NCBI GenBank assembly: GCA_944385365.1
Contig: CALWWW010000024.1
Span: 1 to 36,239, forward strand
Source: an uncultured Oscillospiraceae bacterium
Lineage (GTDB): Bacteria > Bacillota > Clostridia > Oscillospirales > Oscillospiraceae
Reading direction: 5' to 3'
Length of the DNA stretch: 36,239 nt
Shown here: in pieces, positions 904 to 28,671 of the stretch
Layout: each line of letters begins with the position of its first letter
Position numbering within the stretch: position 1 is the first letter of the stretch
Notes under the pieces: generated by a model
Told to the model about the DNA's origin: nothing
Database searches by the model: none
Seen by the model: only the letters and a program-made list of their open reading frames with translations
Position numbers and translations under genes: made by a program

Positions 904-3450
904 ATGAAAGGCTCAGAGACAAAATTGGTTTCCTACATGCAGGGTTCAGACAAGCGGTTTATCATCCCTGTATACCAGAGAAATTATGATTGGAAAACCG
1001 AAAACTGTAAGCAGCTGTACGATGACTTAATTAAGGTTGTAAGACGAGGGCGGAAAAGCCATTTCTTTGGCAGCATTGTATCGGTACACAATGACGGTGA
1101 ATTCAACGAATATCTTGTGATCGACGGCCAGCAGCGTTTAACCACGATTTCATTGCTTTTGCTGGCAATGTATAATCTGATGAAAAATGGCATCCTTACG
1201 CCGCAAAGGGGCAATTTGGCAGAGAAAATTTACAAAACCTATTTGATTGATGAATGGCAGGAAGACGACACCAGAATCAAGCTAAAGCCCGTAAAAAATG
1301 ACCGAAATGCTTTTGGCAAGCTATTTGATGAGGAATCCCAGCATATCCCGGATTCTAATCTGACCATAAATTATAACTACTTCTATTCTCGCATTCAGAA
1401 AGAAGAGGTTACCGTAGACGAACTGTATGACGCGGTTACAAAACTGGAAATTATCAATATTACACTGAACCAGGATGATAATCCGCAGTTGATATTTGAA
1501 AGTTTAAACTCCACCGGCGTTGCGCTCAGTGAGGGCGATAAGATCAGAAACTTTATTCTCATGGGTTTGCCCACCAAGCAGCAAACTAATTTCTATGAGA
1601 AATACTGGAACAAAATTGAGATCTGTACAGACTATGATGTCAGCCTGTTTATTCGTGACTATCTCAGTGTCAAACAGCAGATTATCCCTGCCATGAGCAA
1701 GGTGTACTTTACATTCAAGGCATTTGTTGAAGAAAACGGGACAGATGTTGAGCCACTGTTGCAGGAGCTTTTAAACTACGCTGAATGGTACGAAATTCTT
1801 TTGAAGGGAAAGACCACTGACAAGGAGTTGAATTCTTGCATTTATCGCTTAAATCGATTGGAAACAACCGTCACAAGACCATTCTTTCTTGAGGTACTTC
1901 GGCTGCAAGCAGCAAATAAGATTTCCCTTGCCAATGTAAAAGAAATTTTCCTCTATACAGAAAACTATCTGTTCCGAAGGTCTATTTGTGATCTTCAGAC
2001 CAATGCGTTAAATAAGATTTTTCTGATGCTGCACCGTGAGATCATTCGATATGACGGGACAGAAGAAAACTATGTGGAAAAATTCAAGTATGCATTGCGT
2101 TCCAAATCAGAGCGCGGAAGGTTCCCCGATGACGGCGAATTTATTGAAGCGTTTACAGCTCGGCAGGTTTACCAGATGAACAGCAAAAATAAGATTTATA
2201 TGCTGGAACGCTTTGAAAACTACGGCACGGTGGAAGTACAGAACGTTTACAAACAAGTTGATGATGGTGTATATTCGATTGAACATATTATGCCCCAGCA
2301 TCTTACCCCGGCCTGGGTTAAGGAACTTGGCGAGGAGTATGAAACCATCCACGAGGTATGGCTGCATCGGCTGGCCAACCTCACCTTAACGGGATATAAT
2401 GCCAAATACAGCAACAGTGCATTTTTAGAAAAGCGTGATATGAAAAATGGATTTCGTGACAGCCATCTCCATATGAACGCTTGGATTGGCCACCAGGAAC
2501 ATTGGGGACTGGCAGAGCTGGAAGCACGCAATCAAGTTTTGATGCAGCAGGCAGTGATGATCTGGCCGCTGCCGGATACAAACTTCAAGCCGACAGAAAA
2601 GCAGATGGATTCCTATTCCCTGGATGATGATGTGGACTTGAGTGGCCGCGACATTGTCCGCTTTGGATATAAGAATACAGAGCAGCCGGTTACCAGTTGG
2701 ATTGATATGATGGAACAGGTTCTGAAAATCCTTCATGCAGAGGATAAATCGGTTCTGTCCAGACTGGCCTATGCCCAGGAGGATGCAAATGATTTGGCTG
2801 CTTATGTAAGCAATAACCCACAGAATTTAAGGAATGCCCTGAAAATTGATAGCGATATTTTTGTAGAAAGAAATACCAGTACATCCACTAAAATTTCCAT
2901 GCTGCGCAAGTTCTTTAAGGCATATGGAGTAAATGAGTCGGATTTGGTATTTTATCTCAAGGATTCCAATGCGGATAGCCGCTCCCAGGAAGCTGGCACA
3001 CGGTATGAGCTGCGGCGTAGATATTGGACCTTTGCGCTGCCGCATATCCAGCAGGCACATGATGATGGAACCGGACACGGCTGCTTTGCCGGATGCACAA
3101 CCTCAAAAGAAAACTGGATGAGCAGCGGTTTTGGCATTATGGGATTTAACTTGGCCTGTGTCGCAAATTACAATAAAGCAAAGGTCAGCTTATGGCTTTC
3201 CAGTTCCACCAAAGAGCGCAATAAAGCCGCGTTTGACTATTTATATAGTCATAAAGTGGAAATAGAGGACCGTCTTGGTACCAAGCTGGAATGGCTGCGC
3301 AGTGATGATACCAAGGGTTCCTATATCGTGATTTATTTGGAAGGTGTTAGTATCGAGAAAGAAACGGACTGGACACAAATGGCCAAGTTCCATGCTGAGT
3401 GGAGCAAAAAGTTTTATGATGTATTGGTTCCTTTTTTGAGGAGTTGGTGA
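904..3450 (+). CDS. GmrSD-type restriction-like defence protein (DUF262-DUF1524-DUF4268)
   Basis: This 848-residue protein has the full DUF262 signature: IPVYQRNYDW near residue 21 and VIDGQQRLTT near residue 73, the ParB-like NTP-using half of GmrS-type enzymes. Around residues 458-512 follow SIEHIMPQHL and HRLANLTLTGYN, the His-Me (HNH) nuclease core of DUF1524/GmrD. The last ~150 residues (YWTFALPHIQ, then FGIMGFNLAC, to YDVLVPFLRSW) match DUF4268, often found at the end of such proteins. In this family the single-chain form is a modification-dependent (type IV-like) restriction enzyme acting on phage DNA; that activity is inferred. It stands alone between its own promoter and terminator. 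Its base composition and AT-rich codons differ clearly from the GC-rich genes to the right, and it lies beside a dead integrase, so it was probably acquired. The start ATG lies 3 nt after an upstream stop and has only a weak ribosome site. Confidence 0.88.
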   Translation: MKGSETKLVSYMQGSDKRFIIPVYQRNYDWKTENCKQLYDDLIKVVRRGRKSHFFGSIVSVHNDGEFNEYLVIDGQQRLTTISLLLLAMYNLMKNGILTPQRGNLAEKIYKTYLIDEWQEDDTRIKLKPVKNDRNAFGKLFDEESQHIPDSNLTINYNYFYSRIQKEEVTVDELYDAVTKLEIINITLNQDDNPQLIFESLNSTGVALSEGDKIRNFILMGLPTKQQTNFYEKYWNKIEICTDYDVSLFIRDYLSVKQQIIPAMSKVYFTFKAFVEENGTDVEPLLQELLNYAEWYEILLKGKTTDKELNSCIYRLNRLETTVTRPFFLEVLRLQAANKISLANVKEIFLYTENYLFRRSICDLQTNALNKIFLMLHREIIRYDGTEENYVEKFKYALRSKSERGRFPDDGEFIEAFTARQVYQMNSKNKIYMLERFENYGTVEVQNVYKQVDDGVYSIEHIMPQHLTPAWVKELGEEYETIHEVWLHRLANLTLTGYNAKYSNSAFLEKRDMKNGFRDSHLHMNAWIGHQEHWGLAELEARNQVLMQQAVMIWPLPDTNFKPTEKQMDSYSLDDDVDLSGRDIVRFGYKNTEQPVTSWIDMMEQVLKILHAEDKSVLSRLAYAQEDANDLAAYVSNNPQNLRNALKIDSDIFVERNTSTSTKISMLRKFFKAYGVNESDLVFYLKDSNADSRSQEAGTRYELRRRYWTFALPHIQQAHDDGTGHGCFAGCTTSKENWMSSGFGIMGFNLACVANYNKAKVSLWLSSSTKERNKAAFDYLYSHKVEIEDRLGTKLEWLRSDDTKGSYIVIYLEGVSIEKETDWTQMAKFHAEWSKKFYDVLVPFLRSW

Positions 3451-3691: not shown

Positions 3692-3784
3692 AATACAATA
3701 TGGTTTCCGTATGCTGCGATTGCCCCAAATTGCGATGGATGCAGCAGAGACGAATTTGATTCAATGATTAAAGGAGTGCGTACC

Positions 3785-5587
3785 ATGGCACAAACCATTC
3801 CAAACCGCAGTGAACTGGCGAAGGAGTACACCTGGAATCTGGCCGATCTGTTCCCCAGCGACGACGCCTGGCGGGAGGCGTTTGCCCGTATGCGGGAGAC
3901 GCTGGCCAAGCTGTCCGACTATCAGGGACGGTTGGGCGAAAGCGCCGAAACGCTGCTGGCGTTTCTCCAGTTACAGGACCAGTTGGAAGAGGACGGCGAC
4001 CGTCTGCTGTCCTATGCTTTCCGTAAGACCGACGAGGACACCCGGAATCCGGTCTATCAGGAAATGAGCGCCCAGGCCCATCATCTCCTGGTGGAATTGG
4101 AGCAGGCGCTGGCCTTCCAGACGCCGGAACTGCTGGCCATTGACGCCGGACGTCTGGAGTCCTTCTATCGGGAGGTCCCGGCGCTGGAGCACTACCGGCT
4201 GCTGCTGACCCGCATTCTCCGCAAAAAGGACCACACCCTGTCCGGAGAAGGGGAGGGGCTGCTGGCCGCCGCCGGCAGCATGGGACAGGCCCCCGGAAAC
4301 ATCTTCTCCCTGTTGAATAACGCTGACCTGACCTTCGATGACGCGGTGGACAGCCAGGGCAACCGCCATCCCGTGTCCCACGGCAATTATGGCCCCCTGC
4401 TGGAATCCCCGGACCGCACCCTGCGGGAGTCGGCGTTCCGGTCCCTCTACGCCGGTTACGGCAAGCTGAAGAACACCTGTTCCGCTGTTCTGAGCGCCCA
4501 GATGAAGCAGCTGCAATTTTTTGCCGAAGCCCGCCGGTATCCCTCGGCCCTCCATGCGGCCCTGGCGGAGACGGAGGTCCCGGTGGAGATCTATCACAAT
4601 CTCATTGAGACGGTCCACAAGCATCTGCCCACCATGCACCGCTATGTGCGTCTGCGGAAGAAGCTGCTGGGGGTGGACAAGCTCCATTACTACGATCTCT
4701 ACACCCCCATGGTGGCTGACCAGCGCATGGAGGTACCCTTTGAGCAGGGCAAGGAGCTGGCCCGTGCCGCCCTGGCCCCTCTGGGAGAGGACTATCTGCG
4801 GGTGCTCAACGAGGGCTTTGAAAACCGCTGGCTGGATGTCTACGAAAACCAGGGCAAGCGTTCCGGCGCCTATTCCGCCGGTGTCTACGGCGTCCATCCC
4901 TTTGTGCTGCTCAACTACACCGATACCCTCAGTGACGCCTTTACCCTAGTCCACGAGATGGGCCACGCCCTCCATTCCTACCTGTCCAACCACAACCAGA
5001 GCGTCACCTATGCCGGTTATAAAATCTTTGTGGCGGAGGTGGCTTCCACCTGCAACGAAGCCCTGCTGATTCACCATCTGCTGGACGGCGCTCAAGACCC
5101 CAAGCGCCGCGCCTATCTGATCAATCACTTCCTGGAGCGGTTCCGCGCCACGCTGTACCGGCAGACCATGTTTGCCGAGTTTGAGCTGTGGTGCAGCGAG
5201 CAGACCCGCCTGGGCAACGCCCTGACGGCAGACGCCCTCTGCACCAAGTACGCCGAGCTGAACCGGCTGTACTACGGCGAGGACATTGAAGCCGACCCGG
5301 AGATCGCGCTGGAGTGGGCTCGGATTCCCCACTTCTACTATAATTTCTATGTGTATCAGTACGCCACGGGTTTCGCTTCTGCCGTGGCCCTGTCCCGCCG
5401 GATTCTCCGGGAGGGCCAGCCGGCCGTGAAGGACTATCTGCGCTTCCTCAGCGGCGGCTGCTCCGCCGACCCGGTGACGCTGCTGCAAGGCGCCGGTGTG
5501 GACCTGTCCACCCCGGCCCCCATCGACGACGCCCTGCAGTATTTCAGCCGCCTGCTGGACGAGCTGGAATCCCTGATGACGCTGTAA
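3785..5587 (+). CDS. pepF: Oligoendopeptidase F, M3B metallopeptidase
   Basis: The 600-residue product has the usual length of oligoendopeptidase F. Its zinc site is HEMGH at residues 390-394, followed by the downstream glutamate region (VAEVASTCNEALL) typical of M3 enzymes, and the N-terminus (NRSELAKEYTWNLADLFPSD) is the classic PepF opening. It is a cytoplasmic enzyme that cuts short peptides, commonly 7-17 residues, after import. I chose ATG 3785, not the in-frame ATG at 3764, because AAAGGAG (3770-3776) lies 8 nt before it. It is followed by the peptide importer operon, which would supply its substrates, although each has its own promoter. No clear T-tailed terminator follows; only a 5-bp CCGGT/ACCGG hairpin is visible near 5626-5638. 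Confidence 0.95.
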   Translation: MAQTIPNRSELAKEYTWNLADLFPSDDAWREAFARMRETLAKLSDYQGRLGESAETLLAFLQLQDQLEEDGDRLLSYAFRKTDEDTRNPVYQEMSAQAHHLLVELEQALAFQTPELLAIDAGRLESFYREVPALEHYRLLLTRILRKKDHTLSGEGEGLLAAAGSMGQAPGNIFSLLNNADLTFDDAVDSQGNRHPVSHGNYGPLLESPDRTLRESAFRSLYAGYGKLKNTCSAVLSAQMKQLQFFAEARRYPSALHAALAETEVPVEIYHNLIETVHKHLPTMHRYVRLRKKLLGVDKLHYYDLYTPMVADQRMEVPFEQGKELARAALAPLGEDYLRVLNEGFENRWLDVYENQGKRSGAYSAGVYGVHPFVLLNYTDTLSDAFTLVHEMGHALHSYLSNHNQSVTYAGYKIFVAEVASTCNEALLIHHLLDGAQDPKRRAYLINHFLERFRATLYRQTMFAEFELWCSEQTRLGNALTADALCTKYAELNRLYYGEDIEADPEIALEWARIPHFYYNFYVYQYATGFASAVALSRRILREGQPAVKDYLRFLSGGCSADPVTLLQGAGVDLSTPAPIDDALQYFSRLLDELESLMTL

Positions 5588-5828: not shown

Positions 5829-7742
5829 ATGAAAAAGAGAAAACTGCTGTCTCTGCTTCTGACGGCTGTTCTGGCAGTTTCCATGGTTGCCTGCGGCAAT
5901 CAGGAAACCGTCACCAACAATGCGCAGGACAGCGGCAACACCCAGACGGAGGGTACCACCAACACCGAGGGTACCACCGAGGAGAGCACCCGTCCCACAG
6001 AGCCTGCCGGCCAGCTGGTCATCGGCACTGTCACCCAGATGGGCAACGACTTCTACGACCCCAGCTTCTCCAACAACGCCACCAACTACAAGACCTATGA
6101 CCTGATCCATGGCTATGCCACCGTTGTGGCTGACATGGAGGGTGCGCTGGTCTATGACCCCACCGTTGTGGCCAGCCATGAGACCACCGAGAATGATGAC
6201 GGCACCAAGACCTACACCGTCACCATCAACGACGGTCTGACCTGGAGCGACGGCACTCCCATCACCGCCAAGGACTACGTCTTCCAGCTGCTGCTGGAGA
6301 GCTCCCCCGAGATGAACGGCGTGGACGGCTATCCCAGCCAGGCCGGTTACTCCCTGGTGGGTTATCAGGACTTCTTCGACGGCAAGACCGAGAACTTCGC
6401 CGGTGTGCATCTGGTGGATGACATGACCTACTCCGTCACCGTCCGTGCCGAGGAGCTGCCCTTCCACTACGATATCTATTACGTCACTGCTATGCCCCGT
6501 CCCATGCACGTCATCGCTCCCGACTGTGACGTGGTGGATTCCCCCGAGGGCGCTTCCATCACCGGTGACTTCACCACCGAGCTGCTGCTGAAGACCATCA
6601 ACGATCCCTCCACCGGCTATCGTTACAACCCCACGGTCACCTGCGGCCCCTATCTGTTTGAGTCCTTCGATGTGGCCAGCGCCCAATGTACGCTGACGGT
6701 GAACCCCAGCTATGTCGGCGACTACCGCGGCGTGAAGCCCGCCATTGAGAAGCTGGTCATCAAGACCGTCAAGAGCGACACCATGATCAACGAGCTGAAG
6801 TCCGGCTCCGTGGATCTGCTGTTCCAGTGCAGCGGCGCTGATACCATCAACGCCGGTCTGGACCTGGTGGATGCCGGTGAGGCCCAGAAGAACACCTTCT
6901 TCCGCAACGGCTACGGCAAGATTCAGTTCGACTGCAGCCAGTTCCCCACCGATTCCGCCAATGTCCGCCAGGCCATTGCCTACTGCCTGGACCGCAGCGA
7001 GTTCGCCCGTCAGTACAGCGGCGGTTACGCTGCCGTTGTTCACTCCTACTATGGTCTGGCCCAGTGGGAGTATCAGGAGTCCAAGGACTGGATCGACCAG
7101 AATCTGAACACCTATGAGAAGAACCTGGACGAGGCCAAGAAGCTGCTGGAGGCCGACGGCTGGACCCTCAACGCCGACGGCACCGAGTATTCCGGCACCG
7201 GCACCCGTTACAAGGATGTCAACGGTGAGCTGAAGCCCCTGGTCATCGAGTGGGCCAACACCGACGGCAACCCCGTTTCCGATCTGCTCTCCACCATGCT
7301 GCCCGAGGCTATGAACGAGGTGGGCATGGAGCTGAAGGCCACCACCATGGACTTCCCCACGCTGCAGTCCGCCATCACCCACAGCAGCGATAAGATCTAC
7401 AACATGTACAACCTGGCCGTTGGCTTCTCCACCGTCAGCTCCCCCTGGTACTACTACTCCACCGATCCCCAGTGGATGCAGGGCGGCTACAACAGCAACT
7501 GGATCGTGGACCAGGAGCTGGCCGACGCCACCGCAGCCATGAAGCCCATCGCCTATGAGGACACCGAGGCTTGGCTGAGCGCCTGGCAGACCTTCATCGA
7601 CCTCTGGAACGAGAAGCTGCCCGACATCCCCCTGTACTCCGACGAGTACTACGACTTCTACTCCAACAAGCTGCACGGCTGGCAGTCCACCTCCGTTTGG
7701 GAGTGGTCCCGCGCCGTTCTGGATGCCTGGGTTGACGCCTAA
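5829..7742 (+). CDS. Oligopeptide ABC transporter substrate-binding lipoprotein (SBP family 5)
   Basis: The 637-residue protein starts with a lipoprotein signal (MKKRKLLSLLLTAVLAVSMV then Ala-Cys), so Cys22 would be lipidated and the protein tethered outside the membrane. A Thr/Glu/Gly/Asn-rich linker (about residues 26-60) leads to the family 5 fold: YTVTINDGLTWSDGTPITAK is the hallmark segment, and NVRQAIAYCLDRSEF is the conserved helix. It binds peptides and hands them to the permeases encoded next. It is longer than the usual 520-560 residues, mostly through the linker and internal loops. The ribosome site AAAGGAAG precedes ATG 5829. The next gene follows after 152 bases containing a strong hairpin, so this gene may be made in excess of the membrane subunits. 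Confidence 0.93.
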   Translation: MKKRKLLSLLLTAVLAVSMVACGNQETVTNNAQDSGNTQTEGTTNTEGTTEESTRPTEPAGQLVIGTVTQMGNDFYDPSFSNNATNYKTYDLIHGYATVVADMEGALVYDPTVVASHETTENDDGTKTYTVTINDGLTWSDGTPITAKDYVFQLLLESSPEMNGVDGYPSQAGYSLVGYQDFFDGKTENFAGVHLVDDMTYSVTVRAEELPFHYDIYYVTAMPRPMHVIAPDCDVVDSPEGASITGDFTTELLLKTINDPSTGYRYNPTVTCGPYLFESFDVASAQCTLTVNPSYVGDYRGVKPAIEKLVIKTVKSDTMINELKSGSVDLLFQCSGADTINAGLDLVDAGEAQKNTFFRNGYGKIQFDCSQFPTDSANVRQAIAYCLDRSEFARQYSGGYAAVVHSYYGLAQWEYQESKDWIDQNLNTYEKNLDEAKKLLEADGWTLNADGTEYSGTGTRYKDVNGELKPLVIEWANTDGNPVSDLLSTMLPEAMNEVGMELKATTMDFPTLQSAITHSSDKIYNMYNLAVGFSTVSSPWYYYSTDPQWMQGGYNSNWIVDQELADATAAMKPIAYEDTEAWLSAWQTFIDLWNEKLPDIPLYSDEYYDFYSNKLHGWQSTSVWEWSRAVLDAWVDA

Positions 7743-7894: not shown

Positions 7895-8887
7895 ATGGGA
7901 AAAGGTAGATACCTGCTGAAGCGATTGATTTACATTATCTTCGTCTTCTTTATCATTTCTATTCTGATGTTCGCGATTTACAAATCCATGCCCGGCGACC
8001 CCGTTGAGATCATGCTGGGCGACAGCAAAACCACCATGAAACCCGATGCCTATCAGGCCCTGTACGACAAAACAAGGGAATCCCTGGGCCTGGACGCGCC
8101 CCTGCCGGTGCAATATCTGAGCTGGATGGGCAATATGCTGACCGGTGAATTCGGCTATTCCACCCAGTACAAGCAGGAGGTCATCAACATCATTGGCGCT
8201 CCCATGGCCAATACCGTAATTTTGAATATTCTGACCATGTTTGTGGTCTTTATCATTGCTATCCCCCTGGGAATTCTCACCGCAGTGCGAAAAAACAGCG
8301 TCTTTGACAAGGCGGTTCAGGTTTTGACCATTGTGGGCTACAGTATCCCAACCTTTATTATCGCATTGCTGGCCATCTTCCTGCTGGCTGTCAAGATTCC
8401 CATTTTCCCCATTAGCGGCGTCCAATCCGCCGGTTCCACAGCCACAGGCATGGCCTATGTGCTCGACAGGCTGCACCATATGGTCCTGCCGGTGCTGGTC
8501 ATGTCCGTTTCGGGCATCGGCGGCATCACCCGCTATGTCCGCGCCGCCATGATCGACGTGCTGCGTATGGACTACATCAAGACGGCCCGGGCCAAGGGCC
8601 TGCGGGAGAAGACCGTCATCTATATCCACGCGTTCCGCAACGCCCTGATTCCCGTGGTGACCATTACCACCTGGTGGATCATCGGCCTGTTTGGCGGTTC
8701 CATCGTCATTGAGTCCGTGTTCCTGTGGCCCGGCCTCGGCAAAATGCTCATTGACGGCTTGCTGCAGCGCGACTTTGCGGTGGTGCTCACCATGCAGATG
8801 TTCTACGTGGTCCTGTCCCTGGCGGGCAACGTCATTATGGACATCGCCTATACGCTGGTGGACCCCCGCGTGAGACTGGAAAACTAA
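7895..8887 (+). CDS. oppB: Peptide ABC transporter permease, OppB/DppB type
   Basis: The 330-residue integral membrane protein opens with a first transmembrane helix (LIYIIFVFFIISILMFAIY), followed by the family's SMPGDPVEIMLGD loop. The cytoplasmic EAA loop is clear: DYIKTARAKGLREKTVIYIH, the contact site for the ATPase. The C-terminal DPRVRLEN is a typical OppB ending. It forms the channel together with the following permease. TGGAGGAA lies just before ATG 7895, and the stop is 13 nt from the next start, so the two are translated together. Nothing unusual is inserted in this subunit, in contrast to its partner. Confidence 0.95.
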   Translation: MGKGRYLLKRLIYIIFVFFIISILMFAIYKSMPGDPVEIMLGDSKTTMKPDAYQALYDKTRESLGLDAPLPVQYLSWMGNMLTGEFGYSTQYKQEVINIIGAPMANTVILNILTMFVVFIIAIPLGILTAVRKNSVFDKAVQVLTIVGYSIPTFIIALLAIFLLAVKIPIFPISGVQSAGSTATGMAYVLDRLHHMVLPVLVMSVSGIGGITRYVRAAMIDVLRMDYIKTARAKGLREKTVIYIHAFRNALIPVVTITTWWIIGLFGGSIVIESVFLWPGLGKMLIDGLLQRDFAVVLTMQMFYVVLSLAGNVIMDIAYTLVDPRVRLEN

Positions 8888-8900: not shown

Positions 8901-10709
8901 ATGCGTAACAACAAGAAGAAAACCCGACGCTCCACGGCGGCTACGGCGGCCCAGCGGATGGTTCTGGGCGGTCTCCCTCAGGAGGAAGAAGAGATTTTGC
9001 AGAGCCCGCTGCAAATGGTCATCAGTTCCTTTGTCCGGGACAAGATCGCCATGATCGGCGTGATCCTCTTCACCTTCATTTTCCTCTGCTGTGTGTTCCT
9101 GCCGTACTTTTTCCCCATTGACCTGTACTACCAGGACGTGACCCAGGCCAACGTGGCCCCCGGCTTCGGTATGCTCAGCGTGCCCACCCAGCTGAAGAAC
9201 AACGCCCAGGATTTGTCTGTGGGCAGCTCCTTCTCCGTGGGCCTGGACAAGGACGGCAACGTCTACGAGTGGGGTACCTTCCCCAATGAGAAGCTGAAAA
9301 ACATTCCCAGCACCAGCGAGACCGGCAAGCTGGTCCAGATTTCCGCCGGTCTTGACCACATTGTGGCCGTCAATGAGGATGGACAGGTCTTCACCTGGGG
9401 CAATGACCGTATGGGTCTGGCCAGCATCCCCATGGAGCTGCGCTCCGGCGGCAACGACATCAAGCAGATTCTGGCCGGTTACCAGATCTCTCTGGCTCTA
9501 ACCGAGGACGGCGAAATGTACAACTGGGGCAGCGATTACCTGTTGAGCATCACCTATCCCGAGGGCGTGCAGGGCAATATCGACAAGTTCGCGGCCAGCA
9601 CCAACATCGTCATGGCCCTGACCAAGGACGGCGAAGTGGTGCCCCTGACCAACAAGACCTCCGCCTACACCAACATTCCGGAAGAAATCCAGGGCAATGT
9701 GGTGGATTTGGCCCTGACCGACGAGAGCGCCGCTGCCGTCACGTCCGATGGTACCGTCTACACCTGGGGCAACAATATCAAAAAGACCCTGGACGTTCCC
9801 GAGGAAATCCAGGGCCAGGTGGTCTCCATCACCGGCGGCCGGTACCACTATACCGCTGTTTTGCAGGATGGCACCGTGTACAGCTGGGGTGACAACACCC
9901 ACGGCCAGACCGACGCGCCCAGCGGCACCACCGTCGCTTCGGTGGACAGCGGTTACTATGCCAACTACGCCATCACCCAGGATGGAACCGTGGTGGCCTG
10001 GGGCCTCAAGGGCTATCTGATGGGTACCGACGCTTTGGGCCGCGACCTGTTCCGCCGTCTCCTGGTGGGCGGCCGGATGACCATGACCGTCGGCGCTATC
10101 GCCGTTATCATCTCTTCCTTCATCGGCATTGTTATCGGCGGCGTCTCCGGCTACAAGGGCGGCAAGGTGGATAACCTGCTGATGCGTCTGACGGAGATTG
10201 TCTCGTCCATTCCGTTCCTGCCATTCTGTATCATTCTGTCGTCGATTCTCGGCAATAAGATCAGCGAGACCCAGAGAATCATTCTGATCATGTGTATTTT
10301 GGGCCTGTTGTCCTGGCCCGGCATCGCCCGTCTGGTCCGCGGCAGCGTTCTGGCGGAACGGGAGCAGGAGTTCGTCACCGCCGCCAAGGCGCTGGGCGTC
10401 CGGGAGTTCGGCATCATCTTCCGCCACATCCTGCCCAATATTATCACGGTCATCATCGTCAACGCCACGTTGAACTTTGCCACCTGCATGCTGACCGAGT
10501 CCTCTCTGTCCTTCATCGGCTTCGGCGTCAACGAGCCCAATGCCACCTGGGGTAATATGCTGACCGGCGCCCAGAACGGCCAGGTCATCGAAAATTACTG
10601 GTGGCGCTGGGTGTTCCCGGCTCTGATGCTGGGCATCTGCACCATCAGCATCAACTGCATCGGCGATGGCCTGCGCGACGCCATTGACCCCAAATCGAAG
10701 GAGAGGTGA
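8901..10709 (+). CDS. oppC: Peptide ABC transporter permease, OppC type, with an inserted RCC1-like beta-propeller
   Basis: This 602-residue protein is a normal OppC split by a large insert. Residues 1-71 hold the cytoplasmic N-terminus and the first transmembrane helix (about 49-71). Residues 372-602 are the rest of OppC: MGTDALGRDLFRRLLVGG, which is the conserved motif before the second helix, the EAA loop EQEFVTAAKALGVREFGIIF (489-508), and the C-terminus LRDAIDPK. Usual OppC proteins are about 300 residues and have only 20-30 residues between helix 1 and GTDxxGRD. Here about 270 extra residues made of seven repeats of the form 'V..I..G..H..A...DG.VY.WG' occupy that loop, which faces outside. 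The reading frame is continuous across both junctions and the ribosome site (GGAGGG) and spacing are normal. Transport function is secure; the role of the insert is unknown. Confidence 0.93.
   Translation: MRNNKKKTRRSTAATAAQRMVLGGLPQEEEEILQSPLQMVISSFVRDKIAMIGVILFTFIFLCCVFLPYFFPIDLYYQDVTQANVAPGFGMLSVPTQLKNNAQDLSVGSSFSVGLDKDGNVYEWGTFPNEKLKNIPSTSETGKLVQISAGLDHIVAVNEDGQVFTWGNDRMGLASIPMELRSGGNDIKQILAGYQISLALTEDGEMYNWGSDYLLSITYPEGVQGNIDKFAASTNIVMALTKDGEVVPLTNKTSAYTNIPEEIQGNVVDLALTDESAAAVTSDGTVYTWGNNIKKTLDVPEEIQGQVVSITGGRYHYTAVLQDGTVYSWGDNTHGQTDAPSGTTVASVDSGYYANYAITQDGTVVAWGLKGYLMGTDALGRDLFRRLLVGGRMTMTVGAIAVIISSFIGIVIGGVSGYKGGKVDNLLMRLTEIVSSIPFLPFCIILSSILGNKISETQRIILIMCILGLLSWPGIARLVRGSVLAEREQEFVTAAKALGVREFGIIFRHILPNIITVIIVNATLNFATCMLTESSLSFIGFGVNEPNATWGNMLTGAQNGQVIENYWWRWVFPALMLGICTISINCIGDGLRDAIDPKSKER
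9204..10010 (+). other. Seven-repeat RCC1-like propeller domain inside oppC
   Basis: Seven repeats of about 38 residues span residues 102-370 of the permease. Their cores are GLDKDGNVYEWG, AVNEDGQVFTWG, ALTEDGEMYNWG, ALTKDGEVVPLT (degenerate), AVTSDGTVYTWG, AVLQDGTVYSWG and AITQDGTVVAWG. Seven is the number of blades in an RCC1 propeller, so the insert can form one complete, self-closed ring whose two ends lie close together, as needed for insertion in a loop. Repeats 4 and 5 share the linker IPEEIQGN/VPEEIQGQ, suggesting internal duplication. RCC1 repeats are usually protein- or ligand-binding scaffolds; outside the cell it might dock the binding lipoprotein, cell wall or a host/diet ligand, which is inference. 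Confidence 0.88.
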
Positions 10710-10715: not shown

Positions 10716-11711
10716 ATGAGTCTGTTGGAAGTCAAAAACCTGCATACTTATTTCAAAACGAAAAAGGGCATCGTCAAGGCTGTCAACGATGTCAGCTACT
10801 CCCTGGAAGCCGGTAAGACGTTGGGTATCGTCGGCGAGTCCGGCTCCGGCAAGAGCGTGTCGGCCATGAGCATCATCAAGCTCCTGGACGGCAACGGCTA
10901 CATTGAAAGCGGCGAGATCACCTTCAATGGCCGCAACATTCTGGAGGCCAGCATCAAGGACCTGCACCACATCCGCGGCAATGAGATTTCCGTCATCTTC
11001 CAGGAGCCCATGACCTCTCTGAACCCGGTGTTCACCATCGAACGCCAGATCGGCGAGGTTCTGCGGCTGCACCAGAATCTGGACAAGAAGACAGCCTATG
11101 CAAAGGCTGCGTCTCTGCTGGCCGACGTCAAGATTCCCAACCCGGAGCGGGTGGCCAAGCAGTATCCGTTCCAGCTGTCCGGCGGTATGCGCCAGCGCGT
11201 CATGATCGCCATGGCTCTGGCCTGTAAGCCCAAGCTGCTGATTGCCGACGAGCCCACCACGGCGCTGGACGTCACCATTCAGGCACAGATTCTGAAGCTG
11301 ATGAACGAGCTGAAGCAGCAGACCGGCACGTCCATTCTCTTCATCACCCACGACTTGGGCGTCATCCACGAGATGGCCGATGAAGTGGCGGTCATGTACT
11401 GCGGACAGATTGTGGAAAAGGCCGACGCCAAGACCATTTTCCACGACGGCACCCATTCCCATCCCTATACGGAAGGTCTGATGATCTCCATTCCCCGGCT
11501 GAATACCCCCAAGGACCAGCGGCTGGAAGCCATTCCCGGCTCCGTGCCCAACCCCCTGTATCTGCCGGAGGGCTGCAAATTTGCGCCCCGCTGCAAGTAT
11601 TGCACCGAGAAGTGCAAAGCCAGCGAGCCGACTTTGCAGCAGATCGGCCCCAACCATTATATCCGGTGCTTCTATCCGGAGAAGGCGGTGAGAAAAGAAC
11701 ATGCAGAATGA
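10716..11711 (+). CDS. oppD: Peptide ABC transporter ATP-binding protein, OppD/DppD type
   Basis: The 331-residue ATPase has Walker A GESGSGKS (residues 40-47), the Q-loop [10 protein letters not shown], signature LSGGMRQR (154-161), Walker B LLIADE (174-179) and the switch histidine in LFITHDLG. The C-terminal oligopeptide-transport domain carries a cysteine cluster ([13 protein letters not shown] and a late C in IRCFYP), which in relatives can hold an iron-sulphur cluster. It powers the importer on the cytoplasmic face as a pair with OppF. It begins 6 nt after the OppC stop and its end overlaps the oppF start by 11 nt, so the operon is tightly coupled. Confidence 0.96.
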
Positions 11712-12711
11712 AACTCGTAAGGTGCTGCTGCGGGTCCGGGACGTCAAGCAGTATTTCCCCGTGAAAAAGACGAAGCTGCGGGAGAAGCAGCGGTATGTTC
11801 GCGCCAACGACGGCATTTCCCTGGATATCTACGCCGGTGAAACGCTGGGTCTGGTGGGAGAGTCCGGCTGCGGCAAGTCCACCCTGGGCCGAACCCTGCT
11901 CCAGCTCTATCCCCAGACTGACGGACAGGTTCTCTACTACAAGGACGGCAAGGAAATCGACCTGAAGAGCCTTTCCAAAGAGGAAATGCGTGTACTGCGC
12001 AAGGATTTGCAGCTGATTTTCCAGGACCCCTATTCTTCGCTGAACCCCAGAATGACCGTGGGCCAGATCATCGGCGAGGGTCTCGTCTCCCATGGTGTGT
12101 TCAAGCGGGGCGACCCGGCCATGCGGGACTATATCTTCCAGGTCATGGAGAATTGCGGTCTGGCAACCTATATGTTCGGCCGCTATCCCCATCAGTTCTC
12201 CGGCGGCCAGCGCCAGCGCATCGGCATCGCCCGCAGTCTGGCTCTGAATCCCTCCTTTGTGGTCTGCGACGAGGCCGTGTCGGCTCTGGACGTGTCCATT
12301 CAGTCCCAGATTCTGAACCTGCTGTCGGATTTGAAGGAACAGCAGAATCTGACCTATCTGTTCATCACCCATGACCTCAGCGTGGTCAAGTATATCAGCG
12401 ACCGCATCGGCGTCATGTACCTGGGCAATATGGTGGAGCTGGCTCCCACAGAGGAGCTGTTCGCCAATACCCTCCATCCCTATACGGAAGCCCTGCTGTC
12501 GGCCATTCCCGTGGTGGATGAAAACGACAAGCGGGAGCGCATTCTGCTGGAAGGCGATATTCCCAGCCCGGTCAATCCGCCCTCCGGCTGCAAGTTCCAT
12601 ACCCGCTGCCGCTACTGCCAGCAGAAGTGCAAGGAAGAAGTCCCCCAGTGGACGGATGTGGGCAACGACCACTATGTGGCCTGCCACTACCCCCTGCACC
12701 ATAAGGAGTGA
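11701..12711 (+). CDS. oppF: Peptide ABC transporter ATP-binding protein, OppF/DppF type
   Basis: The 336-residue second ATPase shows Walker A GESGCGKST (53-61), the Q-loop FQDPYSSLNPRMT, which is characteristic of OppF, signature FSGGQRQR, Walker B FVVCDEAVSALD and FITHDLS. It also has the C-terminal cysteine cluster (CKFHTRCRYCQQKC, then VACHYP). It pairs with OppD to drive peptide uptake. Its start overlaps oppD, and its stop is only 6 nt before the next small gene, which appears to belong to the same transcript. Confidence 0.96.
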   Translation: MQNETRKVLLRVRDVKQYFPVKKTKLREKQRYVRANDGISLDIYAGETLGLVGESGCGKSTLGRTLLQLYPQTDGQVLYYKDGKEIDLKSLSKEEMRVLRKDLQLIFQDPYSSLNPRMTVGQIIGEGLVSHGVFKRGDPAMRDYIFQVMENCGLATYMFGRYPHQFSGGQRQRIGIARSLALNPSFVVCDEAVSALDVSIQSQILNLLSDLKEQQNLTYLFITHDLSVVKYISDRIGVMYLGNMVELAPTEELFANTLHPYTEALLSAIPVVDENDKRERILLEGDIPSPVNPPSGCKFHTRCRYCQQKCKEEVPQWTDVGNDHYVACHYPLHHKE

Positions 12712-16623: not shown

Positions 16624-16758
16624 GGGAAAAAACCAGGAAAATGATTGTAATTGAAAATTTCCGTATAATCTTGGACATTGAGACGCTTTTGAGGATGAAA
16701 CACAGCAATTACATGGTTTTTGTTGCAGTAATTGCGCATGGGAAAGAATAGGGCCGCC

Positions 16759-19026
16759 ATGTTTCAACTGGGAACTTTATCAAAACTTAACGACTTTTTA
16801 ACACCGCTTTCCCAACGGCGGGAGCCGTGCGTCTATTTTGTACGGGTGGAAGGATTTACCGAGGACCTGCCCGACGGCGTCAAGGAATTTTATCAGGAAG
16901 CCCGCCGGAACGGCGTCATCATCGACGGGCGCATTCCTAATCCCACGCCGGAAAATCTCGCATACTTTCAGGAGATGCTGGGGAGCGGATTTCAGCGGAA
17001 CCGGCCGTTTATGGATGACCAGCTGCGCCGGTGGCTGCCCCGGCTGTCTCCGGCCCAGCGGGGGAATATTGTTGTGTCCATGGACGCCATGCTGGAGACT
17101 CTGGCCCGTCAGGGCAAAAACGAGAACATGCTCCACAACGCCTATGTCAAATACCTCTGCTGGCTGTACTTTAAATTTGAACGGATTTTAGCGGCGCTGG
17201 GTCAGGACCGGCTGCCTAAAATCCTCTACGACGGCGCGGTAAGCGCCTACGAATTGCAGCTGCTGACCATTCTGGCCGGAGCCGGTGCAGACATCCTGAT
17301 GATCTGCCGGGATGGAGAGCAGTACCGCCGGGCGGACCCTACAGACCAGTGCTCCACCCGGCTGCCCCAGACCAATCCCGCCCCGTTTCCCGATTGGTTT
17401 ACGCTGAAATGGGTGCAGAAAGAACTGGAACAGGCGTGGAACCGCCAGCGGCTGTACGGTACGTTGCCCACGCTCCAGCCGTGTACCAACGCTTGGATGC
17501 GGTCGCCCGCCCTGCGGGAGGTGCTGACAGCGCCGCCTGCCCGGGGAGACGACGCCCATCTCTTTTACAACGCCTTTCTCTTGCAGCACGGTGTGGAGGA
17601 CCGGTTGCTGTTTTCCAATGATCTCTTTGGATTCTATCAGGAATTGGAGCGGTCCGGCCGCCCCATCTGTCTGGTGGACCAGGCCCTCCCGTCCCCCACG
17701 CCGGAGGAAATCGCCGCCATCCGGCGGCAGAACTATACGACGCTGGACCAGATGATTCTGGGCCTTTCTCAAAACATCCGCTATTCTTCCCAGGCAGAAT
17801 TGCAGCGGCTCATGGTCAAGGGCTTTGTGGACCTGCTCCTGGAGGAGGGACAGGCCCCGGACGCGTCGTTGCTGAAGCTGACCAACCGGGCGGTGTATCT
17901 GCTGGTCTGGCTGAAACGGTATCAACCGACGCTGTTCCCCGCATGGACGATGGGACAGGTGCCCGTGTTCCTGCTGTTCGGCAACTGCGGCAGCCGGAAC
18001 GAAGCGCTGTTTCTGCGGCTGTTGGCCCGGCTGCCGGTGGATGTGCTGGTATTGGTGCCCAACCGGGCCGCGGTGCCGGTGCTGGAAGACCCGGCCTTGC
18101 TGCGGCTGACCTATGATGACTCGCTGCCCATGGAGACGTTCCCCACGGCCTCCTCCCAGCGGCGGGTGGCAACCGCCGCCTATCAGGCGGAGCGGGACCT
18201 GGATTCCATCATGTACCAGGACTCCGGCATGTACCGCAATCAGCAGTACACCAGGGCCGAGGCCGTCACCCTCCAGACCATGTACGAGGAAATCGCCCTG
18301 CTGTGGGACCAGGAACTCAAATATCGCCCCTCTTTTGCGGTGTCCGGTGACCGGGTGACGGTGCCGGTGCTGCTGGAAAAGGTGTGCGGCGTCAAGGACG
18401 GGGACGTCCGGCGGTATTGGAGCGAGATTAAAAAGCTCCTGACCCCCGACACGGTCCTGGTGGACCGGTTCCCGTGGCTGTCTCCCACCGATGAAAACCC
18501 CATCAAGCCCTATGTGACCCAATTCCTGAAAAACGGCAAGCTGCTGCGGGACAAAATCCGGAACCATAAGGCGTATCCCTACGGGATTCTGCGGAAGGAG
18601 ATGCAGGAGTTCCTGCTGGATCAGGTCCAGTGCTTATTGGACCAAAAGATTATTGCCGGTACCTGGCAGAACGGAACCGAATATACGGTGCTGTCCACGG
18701 CGCTGAATCTGCCCAAGCCGGTCCTGCGCATGGTGCAGAAGTTCGACTTTACCAAAAAGAACCCCAAGCTCCTGCTGATCAATCCCACGGAGCGGGTGCT
18801 GAATCTGGAGGAGAGCATTGTGGTGGCGCTGCTGAACCGCATGGGCTTCGACGTGCTGCTGTTTATCCCCACAGGCTTTGAGTGCGTGGAAAAATTTTTC
18901 CCGCCGGACTATATCCATGAGCAGCAGATTGGCGAATACGTCTATGATTTGACGGTGCCCAATTTTGCCGCTGTTTCCACCCAGCAACCGAGTATCAACC
19001 CCCTGAGAAAACTGTTTGGAAGGTGA
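16759..19026 (+). CDS. YceG-like protein of the Ter stress cluster
   Basis: The 755-residue protein matches the YceG family that lies beside TerD and TelA genes in Bacillus and many other bacteria. It has two or three copies of a helix-strand unit: VKYLCWLYFKFERILAALGQ leading to ILYDGAVSAYELQLLTILAG, then AVYLLVWLKRYQPTLFPAWT leading to VFLLFGNCGSRNEALFLRLL, and a C-terminal version LLLINPTERVLNLEESIVVA. The unit looks like a Rossmann-type fold; its biochemical role is unknown. No signal peptide or membrane span is seen. I prefer ATG 16759 because TAGGG lies 5 nt before it; ATG 16738 or TTG 16732 would add 7-9 residues. It heads the rightward operon, 7 nt before telA. A related half-length domain is fused to a protease later in the cluster. 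Confidence 0.85.
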   Translation: MFQLGTLSKLNDFLTPLSQRREPCVYFVRVEGFTEDLPDGVKEFYQEARRNGVIIDGRIPNPTPENLAYFQEMLGSGFQRNRPFMDDQLRRWLPRLSPAQRGNIVVSMDAMLETLARQGKNENMLHNAYVKYLCWLYFKFERILAALGQDRLPKILYDGAVSAYELQLLTILAGAGADILMICRDGEQYRRADPTDQCSTRLPQTNPAPFPDWFTLKWVQKELEQAWNRQRLYGTLPTLQPCTNAWMRSPALREVLTAPPARGDDAHLFYNAFLLQHGVEDRLLFSNDLFGFYQELERSGRPICLVDQALPSPTPEEIAAIRRQNYTTLDQMILGLSQNIRYSSQAELQRLMVKGFVDLLLEEGQAPDASLLKLTNRAVYLLVWLKRYQPTLFPAWTMGQVPVFLLFGNCGSRNEALFLRLLARLPVDVLVLVPNRAAVPVLEDPALLRLTYDDSLPMETFPTASSQRRVATAAYQAERDLDSIMYQDSGMYRNQQYTRAEAVTLQTMYEEIALLWDQELKYRPSFAVSGDRVTVPVLLEKVCGVKDGDVRRYWSEIKKLLTPDTVLVDRFPWLSPTDENPIKPYVTQFLKNGKLLRDKIRNHKAYPYGILRKEMQEFLLDQVQCLLDQKIIAGTWQNGTEYTVLSTALNLPKPVLRMVQKFDFTKKNPKLLLINPTERVLNLEESIVVALLNRMGFDVLLFIPTGFECVEKFFPPDYIHEQQIGEYVYDLTVPNFAAVSTQQPSINPLRKLFGR

Positions 19027-19033
19027 GGATTCT

Positions 19034-20182
19034 ATGGCATTGGATTTCAACAGACCCGGAGCGTCCGGTTCCGCAGCGGAACCCGCAGCCGTGCCGGCTG
19101 TGCAGGAAGAGACATACCAGAAATACGACATTGTGGCCGACCGGCAGCAGATGAACCAGCAGCTGACCAATTCGCCGGAGGTGGACCGTCTGGCCAGCCA
19201 GATTGAGGTTTACAACCTGGAGACCATTGTATCCTTCGGCGCCGAGGCGGCGGAGGAGATTTCCAAGTGCTCCGACGTGGTCCTCAACAGCATGAACCTG
19301 TCGCAGCTGGACGAGTCCAGCGCCATGCTGACCACCCTGGCCAAGATCATGGACAAGTTCGACATTGAGGAAATCAAGGAAAATCCCGGTTTTCTCAACA
19401 AATTGTTCGGCAACCTCCGCAAGCAGTTGGACAAGATTCTGGCCAAATACCACACCATGGGTGAGGAAGTGGACAAAATCTATGTGCAGCTCAAGCAGTA
19501 TGAATCGGAGATCAAGCAGTCCAACCGGAAGCTGGAGGATATGTTCCAGGCCAACGTGACCTATTACCATGAGCTGGTGAAATACATTCTGGCCGGTGAG
19601 CAGGGCTGCCGGGAGATCGAGGCGTATATCGCCCAGCGGCAGGCCGATATGGAGGCCACCGGCGACAACTCCATCCAGTTTGAATTGACCTCGCTGAATC
19701 AGGCATTGATGATGCTGGAGCAGCGAACCCAGGACCTGCGCACGGCGGAAAATGTGGCCATGCAGGCTATCCCCATGATCAAAACCATGCAGTTCAGCAA
19801 TATGAATCTGGTGCGTAAGATCAATTCGGCGTTTATCATCACCCTGCCGGTGTTCAAGCAGGCATTGACCCAGGCCATCATGCTCAAGCGCCAGCGGCTG
19901 CAGGCCGAGGCCATGGCGGCCCTGGATGAAAAGACCAATGAAATGCTCATCCGCAACGCCCAGAATACGGCGGAACAGGCGAAGATGACGGCCCGGCTGG
20001 CTTCCGGCAGCTCCATTAAAATCGAGACGCTGGAAAAGACGTGGCAGACCATCGTCTCCGGCATCGACGAGACCAATCAGATTCAGGAGAACGCCCGCAA
20101 ACAGCGGATTGAGGACCAGAGACGGCTGGAAACCATCAAAGCCGATTTCAACAGACGCTATCACATGCCCAATCAGCACTGA
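19034..20182 (+). CDS. telA: Toxic anion resistance protein, TelA family
   Basis: The 382-residue, largely alpha-helical protein carries the TelA hallmarks: FLNKLFGNLRKQLDKILAKY in the first half, LEDMFQANVTYYHELVKYIL in the middle, and TLPVFKQALTQAIMLKRQRL towards the end. The long heptad-like helices point to coiled-coil assembly. TelA/YceH proteins are linked to resistance to tellurite, some bacteriocins and envelope stress; the mechanism is not settled. GTGAGGA lies before ATG 19034, so the shorter start is preferred over the in-frame codon at 19016. It sits between the YceG-like and first TerD genes, as in Bacillus yce loci. Confidence 0.93.
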   Translation: MALDFNRPGASGSAAEPAAVPAVQEETYQKYDIVADRQQMNQQLTNSPEVDRLASQIEVYNLETIVSFGAEAAEEISKCSDVVLNSMNLSQLDESSAMLTTLAKIMDKFDIEEIKENPGFLNKLFGNLRKQLDKILAKYHTMGEEVDKIYVQLKQYESEIKQSNRKLEDMFQANVTYYHELVKYILAGEQGCREIEAYIAQRQADMEATGDNSIQFELTSLNQALMMLEQRTQDLRTAENVAMQAIPMIKTMQFSNMNLVRKINSAFIITLPVFKQALTQAIMLKRQRLQAEAMAALDEKTNEMLIRNAQNTAEQAKMTARLASGSSIKIETLEKTWQTIVSGIDETNQIQENARKQRIEDQRRLETIKADFNRRYHMPNQH

Positions 20183-20233
20183 ATTTAGCTGCATAGATAT
20201 TGTGTGCCAATCATCAGAAGGAGGAATTTTGCT

Positions 20234-20815
20234 ATGCCCATCAATCTGACAAAGGGACAAAAAGTAGATCTGACCAAGGGAAACCCCAGTTTGACGAAAA
20301 TCGTCGTGGGCCTGGGCTGGGATGTCAACGCCTTTGACTCCGGCGCGGCCTTTGACCTGGACGCCGCGGCGTTCATGGTCGGCGGCAACGGCAAGTGCCC
20401 CACGGAAAAGGAATTTGTGTTCTATGGCAACCTGGAGCATACCAGCGGCAGCGTGAAGCACATGGGCGACAACCTGACCGGCGAGGGCGACGGCGACGAC
20501 GAGCAGATCGTCGTGGACCTGAGCAAGGTGCCTGCCAATGTGGAGCGGATTGCCTTTACGGTCACCATCTACGACGCCGAGAGCCGTCACCAGAACTTCG
20601 GCCAGGTTTCCAACGCCTACATCCATATTCAGGACCTGGTCGGCGGTGCGGACCTGATCCGCTACGATCTGGGCGAGGACTTCTCCATTGAGACGGCCAT
20701 TGTGGTCGGTGAGCTGTACCGGCACAACGGCGAGTGGAAGTTCAACGCCATCGGCAGCGGCTTCCAGGGCGGCCTGGCGGCTTTGTGCGGCCATTACGGC
20801 ATTGAAGTGGCATAA
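20234..20815 (+). CDS. terD: TerD family calcium-binding stress protein, copy 1
   Basis: The 193-residue protein has the typical TerD opening ([26 protein letters not shown]), the acidic site FDLDAAAFM and the conserved [20 protein letters not shown] calcium-binding loop, ending [19 protein letters not shown]. TerD proteins bind calcium through these aspartates and take part in tellurite, phage and envelope stress responses. AAGGAGGAA precedes ATG 20234; the in-frame start at 20204 has none. Its C-terminal third is nearly identical to that of copy 2, including a shared 40-base block, which suggests recent duplication or gene conversion. Confidence 0.95.
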
Positions 20816-20869
20816 ACAATCCAACAATGTTCCATAAAATATTCTAACAGTGTAGGGAGGAGACAGTAT

Positions 20870-21451
20870 ATGCCTGTCAGTCTGAAAAAGGGTCAGAAGG
20901 TTAGCTTGACCAAGGAAAATCCGGGCCTGTCCAAGGTGGTTGTCGGTCTGGGCTGGGACGTGAACGCCTTTGATACCGGCGGAACGTTCGATCTGGATAC
21001 GGCGGCGTTCCTGCTGGGGGATTCCGGCAAGACCACCCGCAGCGAGGATTTCATTTTCTACGGCAACCTGAAGCACCCCTCCGGCAGCGTGGAGCATCTG
21101 GGCGACAACCTGACCGGCGAGGGCGCCGGTGACGACGAGCAGATCAAGATCGATCTGACCAAGGTGCCCGAAACCATTTCCCGCATCGCCTTCACGGTCA
21201 CTATTTACGAGGCCGAGGAGCGGCGGCAGAATTTCGGACAGGTGAGCAACGCCTTTATCCGCATTTTCGACGAGGTTTCCGGCCAGGAGCTGCTGCGGTA
21301 CGATCTGGGCGAGGACTTCTCCATTGAGACGGCGGCCGTCTTCGGCGAGCTGTACAAGCACAACGGCGAGTGGAAGTTCAACGCCATCGGCAGCGGCTAC
21401 CAGGGCGGTCTGGCTGCTCTGTGCGCCAACTACGGCGTGGACGTGGAGTAA
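20870..21451 (+). CDS. terD: TerD family calcium-binding stress protein, copy 2
   Basis: This 193-residue paralogue opens [15 protein letters not shown] and keeps [22 protein letters not shown] and [20 protein letters not shown], so the calcium-site acidic residues are all present. It ends [19 protein letters not shown], as copy 1 does. The 54-base gap from copy 1 is AT-rich with GGGAGGAG before the start; no clear separate promoter. The three tandem copies probably form hetero-assemblies, which is inferred from the usual presence of several TerD paralogues in such operons. Confidence 0.95.
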
Positions 21452-21549
21452 ACACAAACACAAAACATGGATACCGGGCGGCCCTGTAATCTGCCCGACC
21501 GGCGGCAAAGGACGCCGGACATGCAAAGGAAATGAAGGAGGAATCCGTA

Positions 21550-22155
21550 ATGTCGATCAGTTTGCAAAAGGGTCAGAAAGTCAGCCTTTCCAAGGAGGGC
21601 CGCGAGGGTTTGAACCGTGTGGTCGTCGGTCTGGGCTGGGATGAAGCCAAGAAGAAGGGCGGCCTGCTGGGCGGCCTGTTCTCCGGCGGCTCCAACCAGA
21701 ACATCGACTGCGACGCTTCGGCCATTATGCTGCGGGGCGGAAAGCTGCTGGACCGGAACGACATTATCTTTTTCGGCAACCTGACCCACGGTTCCCGGTC
21801 GGTGCAGCATTTGGGCGACAACCTGACCGGCGCCGGCGAAGGCGACGACGAGCAGATCATCATTGAGCTCAACAACGTCCCGGCGGAGTACGACCGCATT
21901 GTGTTTGTGGTCAACATCTACCAGGCTGTGGAGCGCCACCAGCACTTCGGCATGATTCAGAATGCGTTCATCCGCATTGTGGACGCCCGCAACAATCAGG
22001 AGCTGTGCCGGTACAACCTGTCGGAGAACCACGACAATATGACGGCCATGATTTTCGGCGAGGTCTACCGCCACAACGGCGAGTGGAAGTTCAACGCCGT
22101 CGGACAGGCCACCCAGGACCCCGGTCTGGGCCAGCTCTGCGCCAGATTTACCTAA
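21550..22155 (+). CDS. TerD family protein, divergent copy 3 with a glycine-rich insert
   Basis: The 201-residue product opens MSISLQKGQKVSLSKEG and keeps GLGWD, but there follows an extra basic, glycine-rich loop (EAKKKGGLLGGLFSGGSNQN) before the acidic site IDCDASAIML. The loop LTGAGEGDDEQIIIELNNVP is kept. The C-terminus ([20 protein letters not shown]) follows a different TerD subgroup from copies 1 and 2, so this is an older paralogue and not a recent duplicate. AAGGAGGAA precedes ATG 21550. Its TAA stop is part of the CTAA target-site copy at the left edge of the MITE-like element. Confidence 0.92.
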   Translation: MSISLQKGQKVSLSKEGREGLNRVVVGLGWDEAKKKGGLLGGLFSGGSNQNIDCDASAIMLRGGKLLDRNDIIFFGNLTHGSRSVQHLGDNLTGAGEGDDEQIIIELNNVPAEYDRIVFVVNIYQAVERHQHFGMIQNAFIRIVDARNNQELCRYNLSENHDNMTAMIFGEVYRHNGEWKFNAVGQATQDPGLGQLCARFT

Positions 22156-22310
22156 GGCAACGCCGCACAATTATGCCTTCGGCCCTTTTGGCCCAACTGT
22201 GCAGTTTGAAAATCTTGAAATACATCCAGTATTCCTGCAATTTTCAAACTTTCATTTGGTCTAAAATGGATCCCCCAGTTCTCTTGTCAAATTGTGCGGC
22301 GCTGCCCTAA
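22152..22310. mobile_element. MITE-like palindromic element with 17-bp inverted ends and CTAA duplication
   Basis: The ends are GGCAACGCCGCACAATT (22156-22172) and its inverted copy AATTGTGCGGCGCTGCC (22290-22306), with one mismatch. Each is bounded by CTAA (22152-22155 and 22307-22310), a likely target-site duplication. The 151-bp interior has another inverted repeat (GTTTGAAAAT near 22206 and ATTTTCAAAC near 22240), so the RNA could fold into a long hairpin. There is no coding potential. The left duplication includes the TAA stop of the third TerD gene. It may act as a transcription attenuator between the terD genes and the P-type ATPase gene. A helper transposase is not visible here. Confidence 0.75.
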
Positions 22311-22392
22311 TATCCATAAGAATCCAATCATTGGCAAAGAGGAGCGAATGATACCATTCCTCCTCTTTGCCGTCGTATCGAGGTGAATGCCC

Positions 22393-25047: not shown

Positions 25048-25055
25048 GCAAAGCG

Positions 25056-25094
25056 AGAGGGTACGCCCGCCATTGGACGGGGTACCCTCTTTTT
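25056..25094 (+). terminator. Terminator-like hairpin after the P-type ATPase gene
   Basis: AGAGGGTAC (25056-25064) pairs with GTACCCTCT (25082-25090), followed by TTTT. The next gene starts only 26 bases later, so readthrough or partial termination is likely. Confidence 0.75.
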
Positions 25095-25119
25095 GACAGA
25101 AACAGAAAGGGAGAAGCGT

Positions 25120-25698: not shown

Positions 25699-25710
25699 GG
25701 AAGCAATCAC

Positions 25711-28656: not shown

Positions 28657-28671
28657 GAGGAGAAAGACCAT

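Follow-up and report, generated by a model that had tools for sequence, protein, structure and literature searches.

The oligopeptide permease OppC described here carries about 280 additional residues in the loop between its first two transmembrane helices (TM1 and TM2), and these residues are predicted to form a closed propeller of seven blades with three strands each that probably stands outside the cell. The protein is encoded in the window, that is, the whole stretch of 36,239 nucleotides from an uncultured Oscillospiraceae bacterium that was analysed. The OppC-propeller fusion is genuine and ancient, and it has been conserved in Bacillota as a single lineage. By analogy with the region MalF-P2 of the maltose importer, the ring may act as an outside docking platform that positions the lipid-anchored peptide-binding protein (SBP) of the importer, a reading to which we assign a rough probability of 0.42.

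An OppC permease with an enlarged TM1–TM2 loop

Positions 8901–10709 (+) hold an uninterrupted open reading frame of 602 amino acids, free of stops, that encodes an intact OppC with an inserted propeller according to the reading frame itself, Pfam, NCBIfam and AlphaFold2. Pfam detected OppC_N at residues 35–87 (43.4 bits, cut-off 23.9) and BPD_transp_1 at residues 409–599 (123 bits, cut-off 26.4), with RCC1_2 repeats in the middle part (E = 7.7e-44, 146.9 bits, cut-off 22). WD40_RLD, the model for the whole RCC1-like domain, scored 147.2 bits (E = 1e-42), under its cut-off of 150. Since the NCBIfam Opp4C equivalog scored 321.1 bits, under its cut-off of 350, we refer to the protein as Opp4C-like only. 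The operon partners of an OppC-type permease, namely SBP, OppB, OppD and OppF, are all present in the window. An earlier note on this DNA had put the protein at about twice the normal length, which is a fair description: 602 aa compare with 285–333 aa in 14 of the 24 insert-free OppC reading frames that were read, and the lengths of the remaining ten (274–444 aa) are due to truncation at contig ends, to overlapping starts or to longer loops.

TM1 comprises residues 48–70 (9042–9110, +), as judged from a model helix over the same residues and a hydropathy peak at 49–67, and its N-terminus would lie inside the cell. The GTDALGRD motif (residues 375–382; 10023–10046, +), recognised by sequence and alignment, precedes TM2, and the remaining transmembrane domain including BPD_transp_1 follows at 10047–10706 (+), supported by Pfam, AlphaFold2 and Foldseek. 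The canonical loop is preserved on both sides of the insert, with QDVTQANVAP at its N-terminal and GYLMGTDALGRD at its C-terminal side. Because these flanks persist, the putative extracytoplasmic domain with its seven RCC1/BLIP-II-type repeats (Pfam, AlphaFold2, Foldseek) can be assigned to residues ~89–368 (~9165–10004, +), with junctions set by eye against short-loop OppCs (e.g., L060, L061 and L117). This agrees with the location between helix 1 and the GTDxxGRD motif that the earlier note had given. The repeat block that it had placed at 9204–10010 does consist of seven repeats, but the start was set 30–40 bases late: position 9204 marks the first strand of blade 1, and the inter-blade segment LSVPTQLKNN ahead of this blade, which begins at residue 92 (9174), represents the start of the repeat unit. 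Residues 92–370 are acidic (pI 4.3), lack cysteine and contain no hydrophobic segment (maximum 19-residue hydropathy 0.71).

Predicted fold of the insert

An AlphaFold2 model based on 47 aligned members exhibited 21 strands, arranged as seven triplets, between residues 102 and 368. Together with the alignment, it placed strands A–C of blade 1 at residues 102–125 (9204–9275), of blade 2 at 144–167 (9330–9401), of blade 3 at 187–210 (9459–9530), of the degenerate blade 4 at 227–248 (9579–9644), of blade 5 at 267–290 (9699–9770), of blade 6 at 307–330 (9819–9890) and of blade 7 at 347–368 (9939–10004), all on the + strand, the last one ending six residues ahead of the GTD motif. Block pLDDT values were 81–94 at residues 141–370 and 72–87 at residues 101–140. 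The mean pairwise score among the seven repeats amounted to 51.3, as against 18.2 ± 0.8 (maximum 20.4) in 300 shuffles. A DG-VY-WG core had been ascribed to all seven repeats, and this holds for six of the blades; blade 4 reads DGEVVPLTN, without WG, and the tryptophan is absent there in ten representative sequences.

A Foldseek search against the PDB returned BLIP-II on top, with five chains (E = 2.8e-21 to 4.2e-20) that matched the ring with TM-scores of 0.85–0.88 (on the target) and 29–30% identity. BLIP-II is a secreted, free β-lactamase inhibitor, whereas here the propeller belongs to a permease. Seven blades of only three strands are described for BLIP-II in the available part of PMC6121496, the same arrangement as in the predicted ring. 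Both the strand pattern of the model and the best PDB match are in agreement with the complete propeller that the earlier note had proposed. For the whole OppC, the model reached a mean pLDDT of 75.8 and a pTM of 0.60 with modest confidence in the membrane part, so that the placement of the ring on the pore in the model is not reliable. The window OppC has TM1, GTDxxGRD, BPD_transp_1 and the operon partners in common with E. coli OppC (8z21) and DppC (8z1v) and with M. tuberculosis OppC (8j5t). This likeness is backed by phmmer and by Foldseek, where the membrane helices matched 8z21, 8j5t and other solved OppC/DppC chains; the differences are the ~280 extra residues between TM1 and TM2 and the sub-cut-off Opp4C score.

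The importer operon

As far as the sequence can tell, the importer looks complete and of Opp/App type, since all five genes (SBP, OppB, OppC, OppD and OppF) are present and the motifs of OppD and OppF are retained. On the + strand, the lipoprotein-like SBP (5829–7742; SBP_bac_5 by Pfam, modelled fold like AppA/OppA) and the permease OppB (330 aa; 7895–8887; Pfam, NCBIfam) precede the fusion gene, and the ATPases OppD (10716–11711) and OppF (11701–12711), assigned by Pfam and motif reading, follow it. A PepF-type M3 oligopeptidase (3764–5587, +; Pfam) is encoded upstream of the importer. OppD and OppF each retain Walker A, the signature (LSGGM and FSGGQ, respectively) and a four-cysteine motif with the pattern C-x5-C-x6-C-x17-C, in which the residues are spaced exactly as 284/290/297/315, the cluster cysteines of E. 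coli DppD given in the available part of PMC12136057. The SBP model matched the peptide binders AppA (1xoc) and lactococcal OppA, and Cys22 was invariant across 41 sequences. No added docking domain was seen in the SBP model, which shows only a low-confidence N-terminal stretch (residues 1–51) including the signal peptide.

A pattern scan of a genome collection yielded 159 relatives, the best 80 of which correspond to 77 distinct loci: 46 full-length fusions, five loci cut by contig ends (L048, L055 and L057–L059), four OppCs without RCC1 (L060–L063) and 22 propeller-region matches (L064–L085). Linkage was examined for PepF and the importer genes. Among the 46 full-length loci (from the best 80 of 159 relatives), OppB and OppD accompanied the fusion in all cases and SBP and OppF in 45 each, both misses (L054 and L049) being located at contig ends. 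The SBP is circularly permuted in the RCC1-OppC operons L109:7052–9295, L154:1043–3370, L155:868–3147 and L156:314–2650, where the segment corresponding to the C-terminus of the window SBP (~586–636) is found near residues 130–207, before the N-terminal core; L154–L156 were the only such cases among 51 SBPs scanned, and L109 came from a separate scan. In distant RCC1 operons (L046, L047, L050–L054, L056 and L058), OppF comprises 480–532 aa and has, ahead of LIFQDPYSS, an insertion of ~150–190 residues that is charged and coiled-coil-like; 40 other OppFs of >50% identity measure 335–376 aa.

A candidate docking role for the ring

Residues 1–47 of OppC contain eight lysines and arginines, residues 71–91 none, and the TM1–TM2 regions of E. 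coli DppB and DppC are periplasmic according to the available part of PMC12136057. From these two lines of evidence we infer that the ring lies outside the cell, as the earlier note had assumed, rather than in the cytoplasm. With the six-residue spacing to the GTD motif and an N-terminal join ~18 residues from TM1, the tethers are so short that the ring should stay near the pore mouth.

We propose that the ring sits on the outside of the importer, near the pore mouth where the SBP must dock, and that it could hold or orient the lipid-anchored SBP above the pore in the manner of MalF-P2, as an OppC-side counterpart of the DppB scoop. This proposal is drawn from the precedents of both regions. 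MalF-P2 is a large folded outer insertion within an importer permease, a description that also suits the ring as judged from its predicted fold and probable outside location. The fold of MalF-P2 differs from that of the ring; furthermore, MalF-P2 belongs to another permease family and spans residues 91–271. It is the outer region of the maltose importer and contacts MalE, as stated in the available part of PMC3150292. In the E. coli Dpp importer, the equivalent loop of the pseudo-symmetric partner permease, between TM1 and TM2 of DppB, is a scoop motif reaching into the cleft of the SBP; it differs from the ring in having ~30 residues that form two short helices and a loop, with no propeller, in the description available from PMC12136057.

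Median dN/dS over 18 pairs was 0.091 for the propeller, 0.083 for OppB, 0.166 for SBP, 0.052 for OppD, 0.047 for OppF and 0.015 for the OppC membrane domain. The ring is under purifying selection and constrained about as strongly as OppB, which sets it apart from surface receptors that diversify. This constraint, the very short tether and the constant linkage to the SBP gene are easier to reconcile with docking or positioning than with a rapidly changing receptor for ligands of the wall or host. In distance matrices of 46 operons, the strongest partial correlation of the ring was that with SBP (0.50). A branch-rate analysis on one fixed tree (44 operons, 78 branches) gave partial correlations with the ring of 0.25 for SBP (bootstrap 0.04–0.47) and 0.24 for OppD (0.01–0.42); the membrane domain followed at 0.20 and OppF at 0.16, and OppB stood at –0.01. 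Since the on-branch signal of SBP was no stronger than that of OppD, covariation is not proof of docking, and ring–SBP co-evolution was dropped as an argument of that kind.

Further insertions in the same loop

In a tree of OppC membrane domains (71 rows), the 28 fusion rows formed one clade with a support of 100/100, and this clade was recovered with 100/99 when the tree was redone with the columns from the GTD motif onward; the propeller fusion has a single origin. For the first tree, each row contributed its C-terminal 245 residues, among them ~11 residues of blade 7 in the fusion rows. In both trees, close fusion rows (L009–L045, L089 and L090) were thinned to 12 plus the window, and contig-cut rows (L048, L055, L057, L058 and L059), a duplicate (L131) and overlapping false starts (L063 and L114) were omitted.

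A second group of OppCs (17 read; L096–L108 and L110–L113), which are Opp4C-like permeases of 511–734 aa, shares with the window OppC a large extra domain in the same TM1–TM2 loop as well as the importer genes. It differs in that the insert (~201–424 aa, with a shorter and a longer version) is another one and in that the group forms a separate clade in both trees. This clade includes the truncated L129, a row labelled as “other” but cut by the contig end, so that the presence of an insert is not readable there. Two proteins of the group were scanned, and their insert gave no RCC1 or other Pfam match over cut-off. Between the insert and the extra residues of the SBP of this group, hmmsearch revealed no significant similarity (best E = 0.24); with blastp, the lowest E was 0.019 among the matches listed. 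Three OppCs of 307–360 aa that lack so large an insert (L122, L130 and L117) branch beside the second group; the loop of L122 is moderately long. The branches that connect L122 and L130 with the second group were starred in both trees, whereas that of L117 was not (91/95 and 85/86). Because the second group differs and is adjoined by relatives that lack such an insert, it is the loop and not the RCC1 ring that recurs. The two insertions look as if they were acquired independently, unless an ancestral insert was lost several times. A Planctomycetota OppC of 665 aa (L062:4774–6771) exhibited a third, different large insertion in this loop.

Recurrent insertions in the OppC loop would be as expected for a docking site, and they could serve purposes besides docking. 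In ABC peptide importers, recognition is generally ascribed to the binding protein. Here, the pore subunit of one Bacillota lineage contains a large folded ring, and that of another group contains a different domain in the same loop. Docking of the SBP by these domains would explain how lipid-anchored SBPs stay at the pore, and binding of cargo would give the permease a share in recognition outside the cell. A broader reading, which we consider rather unlikely, takes the TM1–TM2 loop of OppC as a socket that was repeatedly fitted with an RCC1 ring, a repeat-like α/β domain or the third, planctomycete type. The pore subunit would then possess its own outside receptor that selects the loaded SBP or its cargo, resulting in a two-key importer in which SBP and permease share recognition.

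Alternative roles of the ring

The ring might also be a second recognition module with a ligand of its own, such as long peptides, wall fragments or host or diet polymers, enriching substrate close to the SBP or signalling that it is present; we hold this for a doubtful candidate. The A–B loops of the blades match the strands in conservation (mean 0.63). Y194, Q195, Y352 and Y353 exemplify the aromatic or polar residues there, and H316 is likewise among the conserved positions in or near these loops, but part of this conservation, assessed without a control set, is generic RCC1 consensus. BLIP-II, the nearest fold, binds tightly, with a picomolar Ki for TEM-1 in the available part of PMC6121496, and several carrier records name animal guts. 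Against this reading, the low dN/dS (0.09) disfavours a fast-changing ligand.

An unlikely role, of lower standing still, is that the ring makes no contact with the SBP and controls or closes the outer mouth, be it as a gate, a lid or a shield against proteases, or else brings in a further surface protein. The six-residue tie to the GTD motif would suit this role, and a PepF homologue of >60% identity is encoded nearby in 22 of the 46 full-length loci from the best 80 of 159 relatives (on the opposite strand in L025). PepF is missing from some loci, however, and it is expected inside the cell.

A tolerated insertion without selected function might seem plausible as short-loop OppCs are common, but we rejected it as highly improbable: dN/dS ranged from 0.02 to 0.24 across the 18 pairs, well below 1, and frame and repeats are retained down to 43% identity in the 46 homologues (best 80 of 159). 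Docking of the SBP is the role that we retain for the ring as the tentative main reading.

Distribution of the fusion

The 46 full-length homologues among the best 80 of 159 relatives are 43–98% identical to the window OppC and located in the same importer operon. RCC1_2 and BPD_transp_1 were each detected in 47 of 47 members and OppC_N in 46 of 47 (E ≤ 1e-5). An assembly or binning artefact that fused two genes has a negligible chance of being true, as the 46 loci stem from other records, the same junction occurs in independent assemblies, the carriers G323 and G340 are each a one-contig genome, and the fusions make up a single clade in which the junctions align. The same homologues and one-contig genomes speak against the frame break or assembly join that the earlier note had asked to be checked.

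The search for OppC-RCC1 fusions in other genomes, also suggested there, revealed named hosts in Oscillospiraceae, Lachnospiraceae, one Erysipelotrichaceae and others. Named sources of the carriers were mostly animal gut (chicken, goat, deer), and other carriers are presumably of gut origin too, judged from their taxon names. The fusion was present in 22 of 300 sampled genomes of the window's family (E < 1e-100; three matched only at contig ends), in 17 of 391 genomes drawn from the class and in 14 of 398 drawn from the phylum (G000 and G362 being in both), and the carriers in the drawn samples span 14 family codes. Within the window's genus, three of six genomes including that of the window carry it, and the three non-carriers are 80–90% complete, which points to a patchy distribution. 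The earlier note knew of no functional account of such a chimera, and no published account of an OppC-RCC1 fusion or of an added outer domain in such an importer was found in the open-access PMC literature, where the titles listed included three unrelated ones and a paper on the retinal importer ABCA4. Opp importers that bear an additional outer domain recur in Bacillota.

Other genes of the window

The region 16732–32435 of the window contains genes with YceG_bac, TelA, P-type ATPase and PRTase_2/TRSP, a set that we take to resemble a tellurite-resistance-like stress cluster. A protein encoded there at 28672–30135 combines a YceG with a trypsin-like domain. A gene for a GmrSD-type protein (GmrSD_N, GmrSD_C, DUF4268), possibly a defence gene, is located at 904–3450, two genes away from the importer.
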